This document shows positions 142 to 5,564 of a DNA stretch of 5,564 nucleotides, piece by piece. The notes below the pieces were generated by a model that saw only the letters and a list, made by a program, of their open reading frames with translations, did not search any database and was not told where the DNA came from. Made by a program: the position numbers and the translations under genes. The stretch lies in the NCBI GenBank assembly GCA_019417795.1, contig DXUR01000209.1, forward strand, positions 1 to 5,564. The letters run 5' to 3'. How positions within the stretch are numbered: the stretch's first letter is position 1; each line of letters begins with the position of its first letter. This DNA comes from Clostridiales bacterium (lineage in GTDB: Bacteria; Bacillota_A; Clostridia; Oscillospirales; Oscillospiraceae).

Positions 142-170
142 TTGCCTTTGCCGGAAGATTGTGCTATATT
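142..170 (+). promoter_or_regulatory. Sigma-A type promoter, extended -10
   Basis: A -35 box TTGCCT (142-147) and a -10 box TATATT (165-170) are separated by exactly 17 bases. The -10 is preceded by TG one base upstream (TGCTATATT), an extended -10 element. The preceding 110-140 stretch is AT-rich, as an UP-like region would be. Transcription would start near 176-178, directly at the foot of the hairpin at 182-213, and give a leader of roughly 70 bases before the riboswitch. Placement ahead of an aptamer and terminator supports the call. No start site has been mapped. Confidence 0.6.
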
Positions 171-181
171 TTGCTGCGAGT

Positions 182-213
182 AAAGGAAGCGATGAGATCG
201 TTTCGCTTCCTTT
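182..213 (+). other. Strong 11-bp stem-loop at the 5' end of the leader
   Basis: Bases 182-192 (AAAGGAAGCGA) and 203-213 (TCGCTTCCTTT) are perfect reverse complements, closing a 10-base loop. If transcription starts near 177, this hairpin sits at the extreme 5' end of the RNA, where such structures commonly protect mRNA from decay. Only three T residues end the 3' arm and the next base is G, so it is a poor intrinsic terminator. It might still be a remnant terminator of the upstream gene. Confidence 0.55.
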
Positions 214-219
214 GCATAT

Positions 220-237
220 ACGGAATATAGATTCCGT
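220..237 (+). other. Small 6-bp stem-loop between leader hairpin and riboswitch
   Basis: ACGGAA (220-225) pairs with TTCCGT (232-237) around a six-base loop. It lies in the spacer between the long hairpin and the aptamer. It has no T-tract. Its role is unknown and it may only insulate the aptamer from upstream pairing. Confidence 0.4.
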
Positions 238-249
238 TCTCAAAATCTC

Positions 250-345
250 ATATTTTGGCAAAACCGCCGAAAGGCGGCGACGCAAAGCCAGATGGGTCTA
301 ACGCCTCTCCGAATGGAGAATACGCTATGACAGCCGGTTGCACCC
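250..345 (+). promoter_or_regulatory. Cyclic-di-GMP-I (GEMM-I) riboswitch aptamer
   Basis: The segment carries the hallmarks of the class I c-di-GMP riboswitch. First, GGCAAAACC is followed by a 5-bp stem (CCGCC 264-268 with GGCGG 273-277) capped by a GAAA tetraloop (269-272). Next comes the family signature GACGCAAAGCC (279-289), whose GCC (287-289) can pair with GGC (257-259). Then GGGTCTAA (294-301) leads into a second hairpin (TCTCC 306-310 with GGAGA 315-319). The 3' conserved part CTATGACAGCCGGTTGC (325-341) corresponds to the GGUAG-GCCGGGUUACC element of the family. The GAAA loop normally docks into a receptor in the second hairpin. The aptamer senses c-di-GMP in the cytoplasm. It lies 25 bases before an intrinsic terminator, so the likely output is transcription control of the downstream genes. 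Outer boundaries are approximate. Confidence 0.88.
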
Positions 346-369
346 TTACTGATGTATTCGCTTGTCACT

Positions 370-403
370 GCTCCGTCCGGCTTTGCTGGAACGGAGCTTT
401 TTT
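370..403 (+). terminator. Intrinsic terminator, expression platform of the riboswitch
   Basis: GCTCCGT (370-376) pairs with ACGGAGC (391-397), and the stem continues with CCGG (377-380) against CTGG (386-389) with one G-T pair and A390 bulged. The stem is followed by six T residues (398-403). Two alternative pairings could prevent it forming: AGCCGG of the aptamer 3' strand (332-337) is the perfect complement of CCGGCT (377-382), and GAATAC (318-323) of GTATTC (354-359). This suggests that aptamer folding and terminator folding are coupled. The simplest reading is that c-di-GMP binding frees the terminator and switches the operon off, but the direction is not proven by sequence. Confidence 0.8.
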
Positions 404-407: not shown

Positions 408-1508
408 AGGGGGTGGCTGACGATCCGACGAACATTTCGAGCGTTTTGCACCGAACAGGGAAAATCTGAGCTGCTCGCACAGTGGGACGGCGAAAAGAAC
501 GCACCTCTGACGCCGGACGATGTGACTTTCGGCAGCCACAAAAGAGTCTGGTGGACATGCCCGAACGGCCACTCGTGGCAGGCCATGGTTTACACCCGCA
601 GCGAGGGAACAGGCTGCCCCTACTGCACGGGGCGCAAGGTTACGCCTAAACAGGGCGGCCTGGTGAAGCAGTTTCCACTGCTCGCGGCAGAGTGGGACGT
701 CGAGAAGAACACGCCTCTGACGCCGCAGGATGTCACGACCGGTAGCCACAAGCTCATCTGGTGGAGATGCCCGAAAGGGCATTCCTACCGTTCCGCCGTC
801 AAGACGCGGGTGCAGGGCAGCGGTTGTCCCTACTGTGCGGGAAAGAACGTCCTGCCAGAGGAAACCTCCCTTGCGGCTGAGTATCCGTCGATCGCGAAAG
901 AATGGGATGCGGCAAAAAACGTGCCTCTTTTGCCTACGCAGGTGATCTCCGGCACAAGGCGCAAAGTCTGGTGGCGCTGCCCAAAAGGCCATTCATGGCG
1001 CGCGGCGGTGTATTCGAGGACCACCCTCGGCACGGGCTGTCCGGTCTGCACCGGCCGGCAGGCGTTGGCCGGTGAAAACGACCTCGCGACGCTGTACCCC
1101 GACATTGCCGCGCAGTGGGACGAGGAGAAAAACGGTGCGCTTCATCCAAACAATGTCACCGCGGGCTCGAACCGCCGCGTGTGGTGGCGATGCGAAAAAG
1201 GCCATTCCTACCGCGCCGTGATCGCGCAGCGCGTGCAGCGCGGCGACGGCTGCCCTTACTGCGCCAACCGAAAGGTGCTGCCGGGGTTCAATGATCTTGC
1301 GACCGCAGCGCCGCTCGTCGCGAAGCAATGGCACGAAACCCTCAACGGTGCGCTGACACCGGAGATGGTCACAGCTGGCAGCCACAAAAAGGCGTGGTGG
1401 CAGTGTTCCTACGGCCACGTCTGGAAAGCTGCGATTTATTCCCGCGCGGGCGTGCAGCAGTGCGGATGTCCCGTCTGCGCCGGAAGAACCAAGCGCAAAA
1501 CCAAGTAA
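405..1508 (+). CDS. Five-repeat zinc-ribbon protein (DUF4379-like)
   Basis: The protein is about 367 residues if it starts at GTG 405. It consists almost wholly of five tandem repeats of the treble-clef/zinc-ribbon type known as DUF4379 (Pfam PF14311). Each repeat reads W-D-x-x-K-N, then L-x-P-x-x-V-x-x-G-(S/T), WW-x-C-x-x-x-H, and GCPxC. The putative zinc ligands are a Cys-x3-His pair and a Cys-x2-Cys pair, for example C52, H56, C71, C74 in repeat 1 and C334, H338, C355, C358 in repeat 5. All five sets are complete. The protein ends shortly after repeat 5 in a basic tail (RTKRKTK), with no nuclease or helicase domain. There is no signal peptide, so it is probably cytoplasmic. Nucleic-acid binding is a reasonable inference for such ribbons, but the function is unknown. 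The frame is also open upstream to TTG 255 through the riboswitch and terminator, but that extension is structured RNA. It is GC-rich and precedes the adhesin by 53 bases, so the two are probably cotranscribed. Confidence 0.82.
   Translation: MRGWLTIRRTFRAFCTEQGKSELLAQWDGEKNAPLTPDDVTFGSHKRVWWTCPNGHSWQAMVYTRSEGTGCPYCTGRKVTPKQGGLVKQFPLLAAEWDVEKNTPLTPQDVTTGSHKLIWWRCPKGHSYRSAVKTRVQGSGCPYCAGKNVLPEETSLAAEYPSIAKEWDAAKNVPLLPTQVISGTRRKVWWRCPKGHSWRAAVYSRTTLGTGCPVCTGRQALAGENDLATLYPDIAAQWDEEKNGALHPNNVTAGSNRRVWWRCEKGHSYRAVIAQRVQRGDGCPYCANRKVLPGFNDLATAAPLVAKQWHETLNGALTPEMVTAGSHKKAWWQCSYGHVWKAAIYSRAGVQQCGCPVCAGRTKRKTK
465..1487 (+). repeat. Five tandem 70-71 residue zinc-ribbon repeats
   Basis: The anchor tryptophan of the WDxEKN-type motif falls at 483, 693, 903, 1116 and 1329, giving periods of 70, 70, 71 and 71 codons. 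Each unit has the order WDxxKN, P-x-x-V-x-x-G, WW-x-C-x3-H, R, GCPxC. Repeat 5 is the most diverged, with WHETLN in place of WDxEKN and an extra Cys before its GCPVC. The units are similar in protein but differ at many bases, so they are old duplications rather than a recent expansion. Confidence 0.85.
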
Positions 1509-1513
1509 ACCCA

Positions 1514-1529
1514 GCCCGCGGAGGCGGGC
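1514..1529 (+). other. Intercistronic GC hairpin
   Basis: GCCCGC (1514-1519) and GGCGGGC (1523-1529) form a 6-bp all-GC stem with a GGAG loop (1520-1523), starting 6 bases after the stop of the zinc-ribbon gene. It is followed by an A-rich, not T-rich, stretch, so it is not a normal intrinsic terminator. It may be an mRNA stability or processing element that lets the adhesin message be maintained separately from the upstream gene. Confidence 0.5.
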
Positions 1530-1548
1530 AAAAGATAAAGAAAACTTT

Positions 1549-1555
1549 AGGAGGT
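1549..1555 (+). promoter_or_regulatory. Strong ribosome binding site of the surface protein
   Basis: AGGAGGT lies 6 bases before ATG 1562, a near-perfect match to the anti-Shine-Dalgarno sequence at good spacing. It decides the start: the overlapping ATG at 1557 would read only Met-Lys before a TGA. Confidence 0.9.
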
Positions 1556-1561
1556 AATGAA

Positions 1562-4500
1562 ATGAAACGGCGATTATTGGCGAGCTTACTAACGCTTGTC
1601 ATGATGCTGAGCCTGCTACCTACGGCGGTTTTGGCATTAGATGAGGCACCTACGCAGGGGACTCCGACTGAGGTTTCTCAGGAAGCCCAGAACGGAGATC
1701 AACAGCAACAGAAGACGGAAGCGGAACCGCAGGAGCAGTCGAAAGAAATTTCCTCTGAGGGCGGCGAGCTGACCACGGGCAGCTATGTTCTGAACAAGGA
1801 TGTTGAGCTGCGGGCAGACCTGACCGTCCCAGAAGGTGCTGTTGTCACGCTTGACCTGAACGGCCACACGCTGAAGGGTACCGGCAATGGCAGTGTCATT
1901 GTGGTAAACAGTAAGGGTGAGCTGACTGTGAAGGACAGCAGCAACAACAGCGGTAAGATCACCGGCGGCAATGCTTTAAAAGAAAATACATCTATTAATA
2001 GTAATACTTATAATGGTGGAGCTATTTATGTGGGTGAAGAAGCCAAATTGACCATGACTGGCGGTACCATTACAGAAAACAAAGCGTTTAATGGCGGAGG
2101 CATTTATATGGGCAAAGCCGCTGTTGTTGTGATCACTGGCGGTGAAATTTCCAACAATAAATCTCTCCGTGATGGCGGCGGTGGCGGCGGTGCTATCTAC
2201 GCTTATGGAGAAGGCGGCAGCTTAAATATTGAAGGCTGCAAACTCAAAAACAATACTGCGGTCTATCAGGGTGGCGCTATTTTTACTGACGGGCCGACTT
2301 ATGTGGGCGTAAATACAGAAATATCGGGGAATACAGCGGCCCATGGCGGCGGTATTTGTGCAAACGATTATCTTAAAATTACTGGCGGTGTCATTTCCAA
2401 TAACACCGCAACAGGAGAAACCGGAACAACAGCAGGTAAGCCTATTTACGGTGGCGGTGTTCTTGTAAATGGTGCGACTTTAGATTTAGAAGGTGGTGTC
2501 ATTTCTAATAACAAGGTCGTAATGTCTACAACGCTACCGACAAAGGGTGGCGGCATTTACTGCGATGTAAAGGGTACCATCAATATTCAAGGTAGTCCTG
2601 TTGTAAAGGAAAATACAGCCAATGATCAGGCGCAGAATATCTATTTGGAAAGCAACAGAGTTCTTAATTTGTCCGGCAATGTGGGGACTGATGCTGAACT
2701 GAATGTTACATTAAGTTCTGAAATTGGCCGCGTTACAAATGTAACAAATTATTCTCTTGCAAACGGAGTAATCAAGCCGGATGATCAGAACCTTGTGGTT
2801 ACGGTCAGAGATAGTGATGTGTATCTGACAAAGAATGTCGATGAAAATGAAGCAATTTGCTCGATTCAAGTTGAAAATAAAACGGTTTATTTTGATACTT
2901 TAGACGCAGCAATGGCTTCGCTTCCTTCTGATGATAATAAAGTGACCTTGCTGAAGAACTGTGAGTTGACCTCTACAATTGTTGTCCCCGAAACAGAAGT
3001 AGTTCTTACCAGTAACGGCCCTATTACAATTGAGTGGCCAAATGCCACAAATTATTTGTTCTATATTCCCGCAAATGCTAAGTTAACAGTTGAGGGCAAT
3101 ATTACTATTCAGGGGAACTATGCCGAGCAGTCAGCGAATTCTAAGAATGAATACTTGCGTGCATTTGAAGTTCTTGGAATACTGAATATCGGCAAAAAAG
3201 ATGGGAACACCGTGGATTCTCCCGTAGTAAAAGATTTCAATACCATATGTGTTGGATCTGACAACAAGCTGAAAGCTACATATAGCTACGGAGCAATTGA
3301 GGTTAGTAATGGTGGTACGTTAAATTTTTATAGTGGAACCCTGAAGAATAACGCTGCGAATATTGGTGGCGCGATATACGCAACAGGCCAAAATTCGGTT
3401 GTAAATCTTTATGGCGGAGAGATCACCGAAAATAAAGCGTACAGAGGCGGTGGTGTTGCTGCTAAGGGAGGCGCAACTGTAAATCTTGCCGGTACAACAA
3501 TTAGTAAAAATACAGCGACTTCAATTATTGGCGATACAACAACGCATAGGGTGGACAATGCTGGAGGCGGCTTGTATATTGCTGGTGCCAACTTAAATAT
3601 TACTGCAGGTGAGATCAAAGAGAATGTAGCAGATAATAGCTACGGTGGAGGTCTATTTGCTGAAGGACAAAGCACCTATGCAAAGATGTCTGGCGGAAAA
3701 ATTGTTGGCAATGTAGCTACTGCAACTACTGGCGAGTCCAGTGTTTATATCGGCCGAGGTGGTGGAGTTAATATTGCTTCTGGTGCGGAATTTACATTGT
3801 CTGATGGTGAAATAAGTAACAATGAAATCCGTGATACGGTTGAAAACAGCAAAAATATTGCTACTGCCGGTGCTGGCGTGATTGTAGAAGGTACGTTCAA
3901 TATGACAGGCGGGACTGTCAGCGGAAATAAGAATGCACATTACGGTGCTGGTTTATATATTACCGTTAAAGGAACTGCAAACCTGACTGGTGGCACTATT
4001 ACTGGTAACGAAGCAAAAACGGCTGGTGGTGGCGTTTATCTCGCGAATAGTGTCGCACACGGAGAAAGGCTGACAGTTGCAAATACACCTGTTATTAGTG
4101 ATAATACGGTTAATGGTGCAGCAAATAATCTTTTTATAGTTTCTGGTAAGACTGTCGAGTTAACCGGCGAGATGAGCAACGGCGCAGCCATCGGCGTGAC
4201 CACACAGGCTAACCCCGCAAACGACAATCCTATTCAGATCACTACCGCGGAAACCGGCACCGACTATTACAAGGATGCCGCCAGTTACTTCATCCCCGAT
4301 GCGGCCAAAGTGATCGCACAGGCGAATGAAAGCGGCAACTATGTGGAACTGGCCTATACAGCGGATACCTACCACAAGGTAACGCTGGATTTGTCTCACG
4401 CCAGCGTTTCTATCGGCAGCCCCACCACGATGGTCAAAGGCGGTGAGTCTTGCACGATCGGCATTAAGGCCGACGAGGGCTACACACTTCCGGTTGAAGC

Positions 4501-5564
4501 ACCGAGCGGAGTAGCAAGTTATAATTGCGATAACAGCAAGACCACTGCAAATGTCACGGTTACGCCCACCGCGAACACCAATATAACAATCGAAGCTGTA
4601 GCCAACCGCTACAAGGTAGTGTTCAACGGCAATGACAGCACCAGCGGCAGTATGGCTGCGCAGGCCATGACTTATGATGCTACCAATAATCTCACGGCAA
4701 ATGCGTATACCAAAACCGGTTGTAATTTTGCGGGCTGGTCTACCACCAAGAATGGCAGCTGTGAATATCCCGACAAGGCTTCTGTTAAGAATCTAACTGC
4801 CGAAAACGGTGGAACGGTGACCCTGTATGCCATCTGGACAGAAAAGACTCCAATTCATAAATTTGACGATGGCGACACTGCCATTCAGAGCCACAAGTAT
4901 GATGGTAAGGCCAAGCAGTATGTGCTGACCAGCGCTGTTAATGACTTTGTTATTGCGTATCAGAAGAACGGCGCAAATATTAAGAACCCGACCAATGTCG
5001 GCACCTATGATGTCATCATCTCCCGCGCGGAAGACGCTACCTATGCGGCGTTCAGCCAGACCATCACCGGCGGCCTTGTGATCACGGCGGCGGATTATCC
5101 TGTTACCGTCTCTGCGGACAGAACGGCAGTGACGGGCGGCGGCACGGTCAAGCTGACTGCCTCCAGCTCTGTTGAAGGGATCACGGTGACCGGTATCACT
5201 TGCAGTGATCCCAGCATTACGGTAACGTCGAACGGTGGCGGTTCTTATTCCGTGATCCTCCCCGGCGTGACCAAGACCTATACCTTTACAGCCGAGGTTA
5301 CAGGCGATTTGAGCAACTATGGCAACGGTCCCGCCACCTGCACGGTTTCCGTGACCCGTCGCCACACTTCTTCCGTTACCCCCGGCAACACCGTTTCCGT
5401 CCCCTCCACCCCGAGCGGCACGGTGACGGTTAACCCGTCCACCGCTTCCAAGGGCGAGACCGTGACGATCACGACCAAACCCAGCGAGGGCTATGAGCTC
5501 GGTTCCATCGAGGTTCTCGACAAGAACGGCGATTCGCTCAAGCTCAAGGATCTCGGCAACGGCA
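1562..5564 (+). CDS. Large secreted beta-helix / InlB-repeat surface adhesin (3' partial)
   Basis: The frame is open from ATG 1562 to the window end: 1334 codons with no internal stop. Residues 1-25 are a signal peptide (MKRR, a hydrophobic core, then TAVLA with likely cleavage after A25). Residues 26-65 form a Gln/Glu/Pro-rich linker. Residues 74-423 are beta-helix block 1 and about 434-925 block 2. Both carry 24-39 residue coils built on GG[AG][ILV]Y, [LM]xGGxI and xNN/xxN motifs. Then follow a divergent InlB-type repeat (about 937-1014), a classical InlB B-repeat / Flg_new (1016-1093, with NFAGWSTT and VTLYAIWT), an MBG/YDG-like domain (about 1113-1178, KYDGKA and NVGTYDV), an Ig-like stretch (about 1179-1262) and the first half of another divergent repeat (about 1266 on, TPSGTVTVNPSTASKGETVT). 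The protein is exported and probably cell-surface bound through a C-terminal anchor beyond the window. SLH domains are common in such clostridial proteins, but none is seen here. Adhesion or polymer binding is inferred. Expression is probably under the upstream c-di-GMP riboswitch. The central part is AT-rich compared with both ends. Confidence 0.94.
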   Translation, partial: MKRRLLASLLTLVMMLSLLPTAVLALDEAPTQGTPTEVSQEAQNGDQQQQKTEAEPQEQSKEISSEGGELTTGSYVLNKDVELRADLTVPEGAVVTLDLNGHTLKGTGNGSVIVVNSKGELTVKDSSNNSGKITGGNALKENTSINSNTYNGGAIYVGEEAKLTMTGGTITENKAFNGGGIYMGKAAVVVITGGEISNNKSLRDGGGGGGAIYAYGEGGSLNIEGCKLKNNTAVYQGGAIFTDGPTYVGVNTEISGNTAAHGGGICANDYLKITGGVISNNTATGETGTTAGKPIYGGGVLVNGATLDLEGGVISNNKVVMSTTLPTKGGGIYCDVKGTINIQGSPVVKENTANDQAQNIYLESNRVLNLSGNVGTDAELNVTLSSEIGRVTNVTNYSLANGVIKPDDQNLVVTVRDSDVYLTKNVDENEAICSIQVENKTVYFDTLDAAMASLPSDDNKVTLLKNCELTSTIVVPETEVVLTSNGPITIEWPNATNYLFYIPANAKLTVEGNITIQGNYAEQSANSKNEYLRAFEVLGILNIGKKDGNTVDSPVVKDFNTICVGSDNKLKATYSYGAIEVSNGGTLNFYSGTLKNNAANIGGAIYATGQNSVVNLYGGEITENKAYRGGGVAAKGGATVNLAGTTISKNTATSIIGDTTTHRVDNAGGGLYIAGANLNITAGEIKENVADNSYGGGLFAEGQSTYAKMSGGKIVGNVATATTGESSVYIGRGGGVNIASGAEFTLSDGEISNNEIRDTVENSKNIATAGAGVIVEGTFNMTGGTVSGNKNAHYGAGLYITVKGTANLTGGTITGNEAKTAGGGVYLANSVAHGERLTVANTPVISDNTVNGAANNLFIVSGKTVELTGEMSNGAAIGVTTQANPANDNPIQITTAETGTDYYKDAASYFIPDAAKVIAQANESGNYVELAYTADTYHKVTLDLSHASVSIGSPTTMVKGGESCTIGIKADEGYTLPVEAPSGVASYNCDNSKTTANVTVTPTANTNITIEAVANRYKVVFNGNDSTSGSMAAQAMTYDATNNLTANAYTKTGCNFAGWSTTKNGSCEYPDKASVKNLTAENGGTVTLYAIWTEKTPIHKFDDGDTAIQSHKYDGKAKQYVLTSAVNDFVIAYQKNGANIKNPTNVGTYDVIISRAEDATYAAFSQTITGGLVITAADYPVTVSADRTAVTGGGTVKLTASSSVEGITVTGITCSDPSITVTSNGGGSYSVILPGVTKTYTFTAEVTGDLSNYGNGPATCTVSVTRRHTSSVTPGNTVSVPSTPSGTVTVNPSTASKGETVTITTKPSEGYELGSIEVLDKNGDSLKLKDLGNG
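2015..2650 (+). repeat. Beta-helix block 1: seven GG[AG]-type coils
   Basis: Motifs of the GGAIY / GGGIY / GGGVL type begin at residues 152, 178, 208, 237, 262, 297 and 329 of the surface protein. They are usually followed about ten residues later by TGGxI or EGGxI and then NN or EN. This is the pattern of a right-handed parallel beta-helix in which each coil contributes one rung. The block ends with SPVVKENTAND followed by NIYLE and a leucine/asparagine strand, which looks like a capping element. Coil lengths vary from about 25 to 35 residues, with loops inserted. Confidence 0.8.
3290..4138 (+). repeat. Beta-helix block 2: nine GG[AG]-type coils
   Basis: Coils begin at residues 577 (YGAIE), 602 (GGAIY), 629 (GGGVA), 668 (GGGLY), 695 (GGGLF), 733 (GGGVN), 770 (GAGVI), 795 (GAGLY) and 822 (GGGVY). 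They carry the same [LMF]xGGxI and xxN follow-ups as block 1. The block is introduced by its own entry segment (about 442-480, VYFDTLDAAM and VTLLKN), a common start of pectate-lyase-like folds. It ends in TPVISDNTVNG and NLFIVSG, matching the cap of block 1. This supports two homologous domains in series rather than one continuous helix. Confidence 0.8.

Follow-up and report, generated by a model that had tools for sequence, protein, structure and literature searches.

A class I c-di-GMP riboswitch downstream of a putative invertible promoter in the leader of a DUF4379–giant surface protein operon of a Clostridiales bacterium

A c-di-GMP sensor in the leader of a giant surface protein operon raises the questions of the direction in which it acts and of whether it is the only switch to which the operon is subject. 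The stretch of Clostridiales bacterium DNA analysed here, called the window (5,564 nt, contig DXUR01000209.1), had been described in an earlier note as carrying at nt 142–403 a complete control unit, in which an extended -10 promoter, a GEMM-I aptamer and an intrinsic terminator precede two genes without a visible promoter of their own. The promoter scan retrieved the sigma-70-type promoter at nt 142–170 of the plus strand (TTGCCT-17-TATATT, 9/12 matches, with TG before the -10 box). It was the sole plus strand promoter-like site within nt 1–2870, and the two genes indeed show no promoter of their own between nt 171 and 2870. Since the whole window holds 12 promoter-like sites and its shuffled versions already give 5.3 (sd 2.5), such a single site is weak when taken alone.

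The genes downstream agree with the operon that had been proposed. The first one (nt 423–1508, plus strand) encodes a zinc-finger protein with five DUF4379 domains (PF14311, 347.8 bits against a cut-off of 24.5, E 3.4e-106, five zinc-finger stretches), whose closest organism-named homologue among the 120 listed of 7734, a zinc-ribbon protein (P0051, 91%), comes from Hominenteromicrobium sp. and suggests a gut Oscillospirales bacterium as the probable source. It is followed by a Shine-Dalgarno sequence, AGGAGG (nt 1549–1554, plus strand), and by the open frame of a giant surface protein with GGAIY-type repeats, which starts at ATG 1562 and runs off the window at nt 5564 on the same strand, for at least 1334 aa. 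The N-terminus of this protein looks, by eye, like a signal peptide, the Listeria-Bacteroides repeat (List_Bact_rpt) was matched in Pfam and the C-terminus lies beyond the window. SLH is present in the corresponding proteins of the relatives L006 and L030, and none was found in the open-ended frame of L010.

Covariance-model analysis identified the c-di-GMP-I (GEMM-I) aptamer at nt 247–345 of the plus strand (RF01051; score 57.2 bits, gathering cut-off 35, E 1.3e-9). The match spans the full model (1–87) and is the only one to Rfam in the window at gathering scores. By hand alignment, G258, A285 and C341 appear to correspond to G20, A47 and C92 (Vc2 numbering), which we take to be the ligand-contacting bases of this class, so that the contacts would be kept. 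Near its 3' end the aptamer departs from the consensus at one conserved base, with A342 in the place of C. A perfect 11-bp stem-loop located further upstream in the leader (nt 182–213, plus strand), found by inverted-repeat search, had no Rfam match at gathering scores. Downstream of the aptamer, an intrinsic terminator with a 12-bp stem and six U (nt 370–403, plus strand, -20.4 kcal/mol; the core given by the scan is shorter, nt 379–398) consists of the pairs 370–376/391–397, extended by 377–381/385–389, and of TTTTTT at nt 398–403. Terminator-like sites number 12 in the window and 6.3 (sd 2.8) in shuffles, and it is therefore from its position that this terminator gains weight. The stretch that encodes it is also conserved, since 72 of 74 homologues sharing the residues read from ATG 327 have the same 12 residues across the terminator. 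The Shine-Dalgarno-like GAGGGGG at nt 407–413 of the plus strand would be present only in the read-through RNA.

As to the direction of the switch, the earlier note had predicted, from the simplest folding, that c-di-GMP turns it OFF, and this prediction is strengthened by a specific antiterminator which that note had not named. A repeat search showed that the aptamer core at nt 282–295 (GCAAAGCCAGATGG) is complementary at 13/14 positions to nt 373–386, within the 5' arm and loop of the terminator (both on the plus strand): the conserved core GCAAAGCC pairs with GGCTTTGC of the arm and loop, followed by one mismatch and five more pairs, one of them G-U. The predicted helix would thus be in competition with the aptamer core as well as with the 5' arm of the terminator. 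It replaces a 6-bp candidate found by eye between the aptamer 3' strand (nt 332–337) and nt 377–382, which was abandoned for the longer, 14-nt one. The duplex has a free energy of -23.2 kcal/mol, compared with a shuffle mean of -14.2 (sd 2.7), and was equalled in 5/1000 dinucleotide shuffles of nt 346–403; since nine aptamer tiles were tested against the expression platform, with those at 277 (z -3.1) and 247 (z -2.8) standing out, we read this as moderate support. The latter tile (nt 247–266), at the 5' edge of the aptamer, likewise shows unusually strong pairing with the platform.

When transcripts of increasing length were folded at equilibrium, the antiterminator had a probability of 0.97–1.00 at 3' ends 385–393, when the terminator is still incomplete, and of 0.54 at 3' end 397, with a mixed outcome beyond and the terminator winning from 417 on. 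For the complete segment 240–403, ligand-free folding prefers the terminator (MFE -57.8, compared with -53.8 when the antiterminator is forced) and disfavours the aptamer (-48.3 when forced; probability of the pair 288–337 at most 0.06). The OFF direction rests, accordingly, on kinetics and on the ligand and tertiary energy that lie outside the folding model, and we infer that the switch must act during transcription, with energy supplied by the ligand. The computation supports a transcriptional OFF switch whose antiterminator is mutually exclusive with both the aptamer and the terminator. Without ligand, the core would pair with nt 373–386 as soon as these have emerged, the terminator would be blocked and the polymerase would read through. 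With c-di-GMP, the aptamer would keep its core, the terminator would form and transcription would end before the ribosome binding site.

The opposite behaviour, an ON switch in which c-di-GMP binding promotes read-through, is known for the class I switch Bc2 ahead of an adhesin gene in Bacillus thuringiensis, shown to be ON in the accessible part of the report (PMC4933901), and the corresponding design does occur in the loci collected here. In a terminator scan of 29 loci, 15 had a terminator. In 5 of them its 5' arm shares bases with the 3' strand of the aptamer, in the other 10 it lies downstream, as in the window, and both ON and OFF terminator designs seem to be in use. For the window we consider the ON reading improbable and set it aside, because its terminator and aptamer do not overlap: the terminator begins 30 nt downstream of the 3' strand of the aptamer, so a bound aptamer would leave it unblocked, and a strong competing helix takes up the aptamer core. 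An OFF switch, the direction we retain as a prediction, had been regarded in the earlier note as contrary to the usual rule for adhesins. A class I switch of the OFF type ahead of an adhesin gene is, however, not without precedent. The class I c-di-GMP switches of one species are described as OFF switches in the part of a report available (PMC11477304), and the direction alone is not new, since surface proteins are already known to be controlled by class I switches.

Such control is indeed ordinary among the relatives. A regular expression collected 51 aptamer-like cores, some of which are surely not real (L017, L055), and a frame of at least 80 codons was found within 700 bases of 44 of them, tandem cores being counted twice. 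According to a simple rule, 27 of these 44 frames have a signal-peptide-like start, on which we base the view that class I riboswitches commonly control secreted or surface proteins in this group. An antiterminator signal at p ≤0.05 was present in 9/51 cores including the window, with about 2.5 expected; the terminator scan covered 29 of the 51 cores and seven of these nine, of which three have a terminator (window, L143 and L150) and four have none. Tandem class I aptamers ahead of giant signal-led proteins were seen in L181 (nt 5565–5897), L193 and L179. Among the loci examined, a riboswitch directly before a DUF4379 gene was found only in the window and in Oscillibacter sp. ER4 (L089), where no repeat pair and, by the scan, no terminator were detected and the antiterminator p was 0.45. 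Of 48 further genomes, 10 matched RF01051, but always on a different contig from the DUF4379 match found or at a distance of more than 100 kb from it. A c-di-GMP-I-GGC aptamer (RF03167) was also observed in Oscillibacter sp. ER4 directly before a leucine-rich-repeat surface protein (L084, nt 1500–1586, minus strand).

The setting of the riboswitch points to a second, heritable switch. Between promoter and aptamer, at nt 220–237, the window carries an 18-base palindrome, ACGGAATATAGATTCCGT, resembling a recombination site and proposed here as the right arm of an invertible element that would carry the promoter. It is the only match of the window to the site pattern ACNRAATNNNNATTYNGT, for which 200 shuffles gave a mean of 0.01, an optimistic figure as the pattern was drawn after both the relatives and the window site had been seen. 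Searching with the DUF4379 protein yielded 80 genome loci (best segments up to 75%) plus further genome matches, and genome searches with the zinc-finger gene gave a best match of 82% over 349 bases, in G006. The gene had no match in plasmids or phages, an exact pattern had none in viral contigs, and two distant loci for DUF4379 were found in the latter.

Eight loci were laid out, and several of them showed the same order, with a gene for a 281-residue tyrosine recombinase, about 250 bases, the DUF4379 gene and a giant protein with a signal-like start. Inverted repeats bracket those bases in 10/14 loci inspected. For a systematic count, loci were deduplicated and required to have ATG, GTG, TTG or ATC followed soon by an aromatic residue or K and then C; of the 45 retained, 5 with fewer than 500 upstream bases were excluded, and an inverted repeat pair was found upstream of the DUF4379 start in 26 of the remaining 40 loci, compared with 3/133 control stretches from the same loci. 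In 23 of these 26 loci the left repeat is preceded by the end of a tyrosine recombinase match, in 22 of them within 20 bp, the identity of the recombinase having been checked with Pfam on L006, L030 and L179. The repeat-bearing loci with no recombinase match are L061, L122 and L128, and the pairs of L061 and L122 may be due to chance. A recombinase match was also present in 2/14 loci without repeats (L005 and L007). Enough downstream sequence was available in 21 repeat-bearing loci, of which 15 show a signal-led frame of at least 300 codons, one a transporter-like frame and five none.

Between the repeats, the promoter with the better score points towards the operon in 8/26 loci and away from it in 18/26, a comparison made across loci, with one genome per species, and in some of which the two strands score alike. 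The distance from the -10 box to the repeat is 34–64 in 22/26 relatives (48 in L010). The repeats often fit ACNRAATNNNNATTYNGT, which occurs 44 times in 1,151,048 bases, with some places counted twice, and 32 of these occurrences stand two to a locus; for L192 and L193 the pattern had to be relaxed. Repeats, recombinase and promoter are together, as far as can be read from sequence, marks of invertible promoters in these relatives.

The window agrees with this picture in several respects. Its nt 221–241 share 20/21 bases with nt 5830–5850 of L010, an arm of the repeat pair of that locus, and 49 bases separate the end of its -10 box from the site at nt 220. No partner arm was found by inverted-repeat search in nt 1–219, where the best candidate was a 9/10 AT-rich match at nt 115–124. 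The spacing of 251 bases seen in L010 would put the start of the other arm about 30 bases before window base 1, and with the spacing of 24/26 pairs (232 or more) the left arm would likewise fall before that base; inversion is for this reason a matter of inference, the second arm being placed outside the window. No recombinase is visible in the window, in which the frame at nt 2–127 showed no Pfam match or convincing relative. This frame ends at TGA 127 and may be due to chance or be the tail of an upstream gene.

These absences, together with the riboswitch–DUF4379 locus of ER4 that lacks a repeat pair, would suit a plain class I OFF riboswitch behind a fixed promoter, with nt 220–237 forming only a hairpin of the leader or being a recombination site that is no longer active. 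We hold this to be somewhat unlikely, because the site fits the repeat pattern of the relatives, at 0.01 expected in the window, and the 49-nt promoter spacing agrees with 22 of the 26 relatives. Given the site, the -10 spacing and the spacings of the relatives, the promoter together with the right arm would agree with an invertible promoter turned to ON, the other half of which would lie outside the window. The parts of the control unit proposed for nt 142–403 stand, but the unit seems to be larger than this interval suggests, since the palindrome sits between promoter and aptamer and such sites flank the promoters of the same operon, beside a recombinase, in relatives.

The reading that we favour, and regard as reasonably probable, is that an invertible promoter feeds a class I OFF riboswitch, with the two switches arranged in series before the DUF4379–giant surface protein operon. 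The promoter, in an invertible DNA element with its right arm at nt 220–237 and its left arm upstream of the window, would decide whether the leader is transcribed; a neighbouring tyrosine recombinase would flip the element, and the window would carry the ON orientation. Since the switches are in series, the operon would be on only if the promoter faces inward and c-di-GMP is low, and since the promoter element comes before the riboswitch, any synthesis of the sensor RNA would itself depend on the phase.

Both kinds of control have been combined in Clostridioides difficile, as far as described in the accessible parts of the reports. In the flgB leader, the class I OFF switch Cd1 is followed by an invertible element without promoter, the flagellar switch, flipped by RecV (PMC5386303, PMC8844915); it resembles the window in joining a class I OFF switch with a tyrosine-recombinase invertible element in one leader, with a surface structure as output, but promoter and riboswitch stand there upstream of the promoterless element, whereas in the window the proposed element contains the promoter and is followed by the riboswitch. 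The cmrRST leader joins a c-di-GMP riboswitch with an invertible promoter, the cmr switch, each acting independently (PMC8844915), and differs in that the riboswitch is of class II, is ON and stands upstream of the element, and in that regulator genes take the place of a surface protein as output. The Bc2-cap leader of B. thuringiensis shares with the window a class I riboswitch with terminator ahead of an adhesin gene, but is experimentally ON, and the accessible part of that report mentions no inversion site (PMC4933901). If our reading is true, heritable control by DNA inversion and responsive control by c-di-GMP would be stacked in an order opposite to that of the two C. difficile leaders, and would act on the surface proteins of gut commensals that have received little study.

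The recombinase–repeat-flanked DUF4379 loci (L003, L006, L030 and others) share with the window the operon, the type of site and the promoter spacing, and differ from it in the riboswitch: upstream of their DUF4379 genes no class I riboswitch was found by the aptamer pattern over L001–L082 or by Rfam on 11 loci. Riboswitches do occur at another point of the arrangement in G709 and G079, two genomes in the genus group of G006, in both of which a recombinase and a repeat pair occur together with class I riboswitches and a giant protein of surface type. G709 (L179) carries the recombinase (Pfam), a repeat pair at 7422/7666, a small gene, class I aptamers at nt 8374–8460 and 8467–8600, and a 911-residue signal-led protein with no Pfam match. 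G079 (L193) carries a repeat pair at 2048/2293, the small gene in one or two copies, two class I aptamers and a 1890-residue signal-led protein, with a recombinase 91% identical to that of G709. In both genomes the riboswitches sit after the small gene. A pattern made of a half site and GGCAAA was rejected as too loose (124/400 genomes); the GGCAAA of the single match followed up, G079:C18, is not a riboswitch, but this match led to the module of that genome. In the place of DUF4379, behind the repeat-flanked promoter, L179 (nt 7703–8194) and L193 (nt 2337–3011 of the reverse complement) have a different small, presumably zinc/AP2-like protein, which in L179 showed no Pfam match.

We give about even chances to the broader view, in which the AND gate of the window (promoter inward and low c-di-GMP leading to the giant surface protein) would be one form of a widespread and seemingly undescribed module of Oscillospirales-type Clostridia, made of tyrosine recombinase, invertible promoter, small zinc-binding protein and giant surface protein, with riboswitches placed at different points and with weak DUF4379 starts, AUC among them. 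A literature search, with most subscription papers outside its reach, returned no title on a recombinase–DUF4379–surface protein operon; the mentions of DUF4379 concerned, by title, fungal gene transfer and phage introns. A ACNRAATNNNNATTYNGT site with a promoter about 35–65 nt inside would provide a sequence rule for finding such modules.

The first gene would probably be translated from an AUC codon. On the alignment of relatives, its start is probably ATC 423–425, which stands 9 bases after the Shine-Dalgarno-like GAGGGGG; purine-rich stretches are seen by eye at a similar distance in DUF4379 relatives. Translation might otherwise begin at GTG 405, in which case the hairpin would also hide the ribosome site, or at ATG 327, which lies inside the aptamer, a proposal that concerns the start only and is compatible with the other readings. 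Each of these codons has a GGAG 8 nt upstream (nt 393–396, in the terminator arm, and nt 315–318, respectively). Moreover, 74 of the 120 homologues listed (of 7734 found) begin with the residues encoded by the window from ATG 327, for which reason gene callers probably start there.

We nevertheless judge these upstream starts unlikely, because of three observations. At the codon homologous to 423, 76 aligned DUF4379 stretches have mostly start-type codons (ATG 25, TTG 18, GTG 11, ATC 8, other 14), the 76 including places counted twice and the 14 rows with other codons, like the GTG of L055, looking like internal domains. The eight ATC rows correspond to six places, and in four of these (L016, L118, L119 and L122) only two codons, neither of them a start, separate an in-frame stop from ATC, with conserved residues immediately after it, making AUC initiation hard to avoid there. 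Finally, all 74 close homologues keep Ile at the homologous position, and variation is seen nearby, at residues 27, 29, 30 and 35, among the 73 that were aligned, these having been chosen by TI near the start (P0093, dropped from the 74, has TI too) and the codon itself being visible, among the window and the 74, only in the window. A search of the literature on bacterial AUC starts found nothing on the DUF4379 family, which would allow direct tests of AUC as a start codon.

Two minor observations concern the neighbourhood of these loci. In L016 (nt 1722–2357) and L118 (nt 2505–3296), judging from the N-terminal sequence only, a serine-resolvase-like gene lies upstream of the ATC-start DUF4379 gene, in the usual place of the tyrosine recombinase. 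L181 carries at nt 2450–2521 of the minus strand a NiCo riboswitch (RF02683), which is unrelated to the module.
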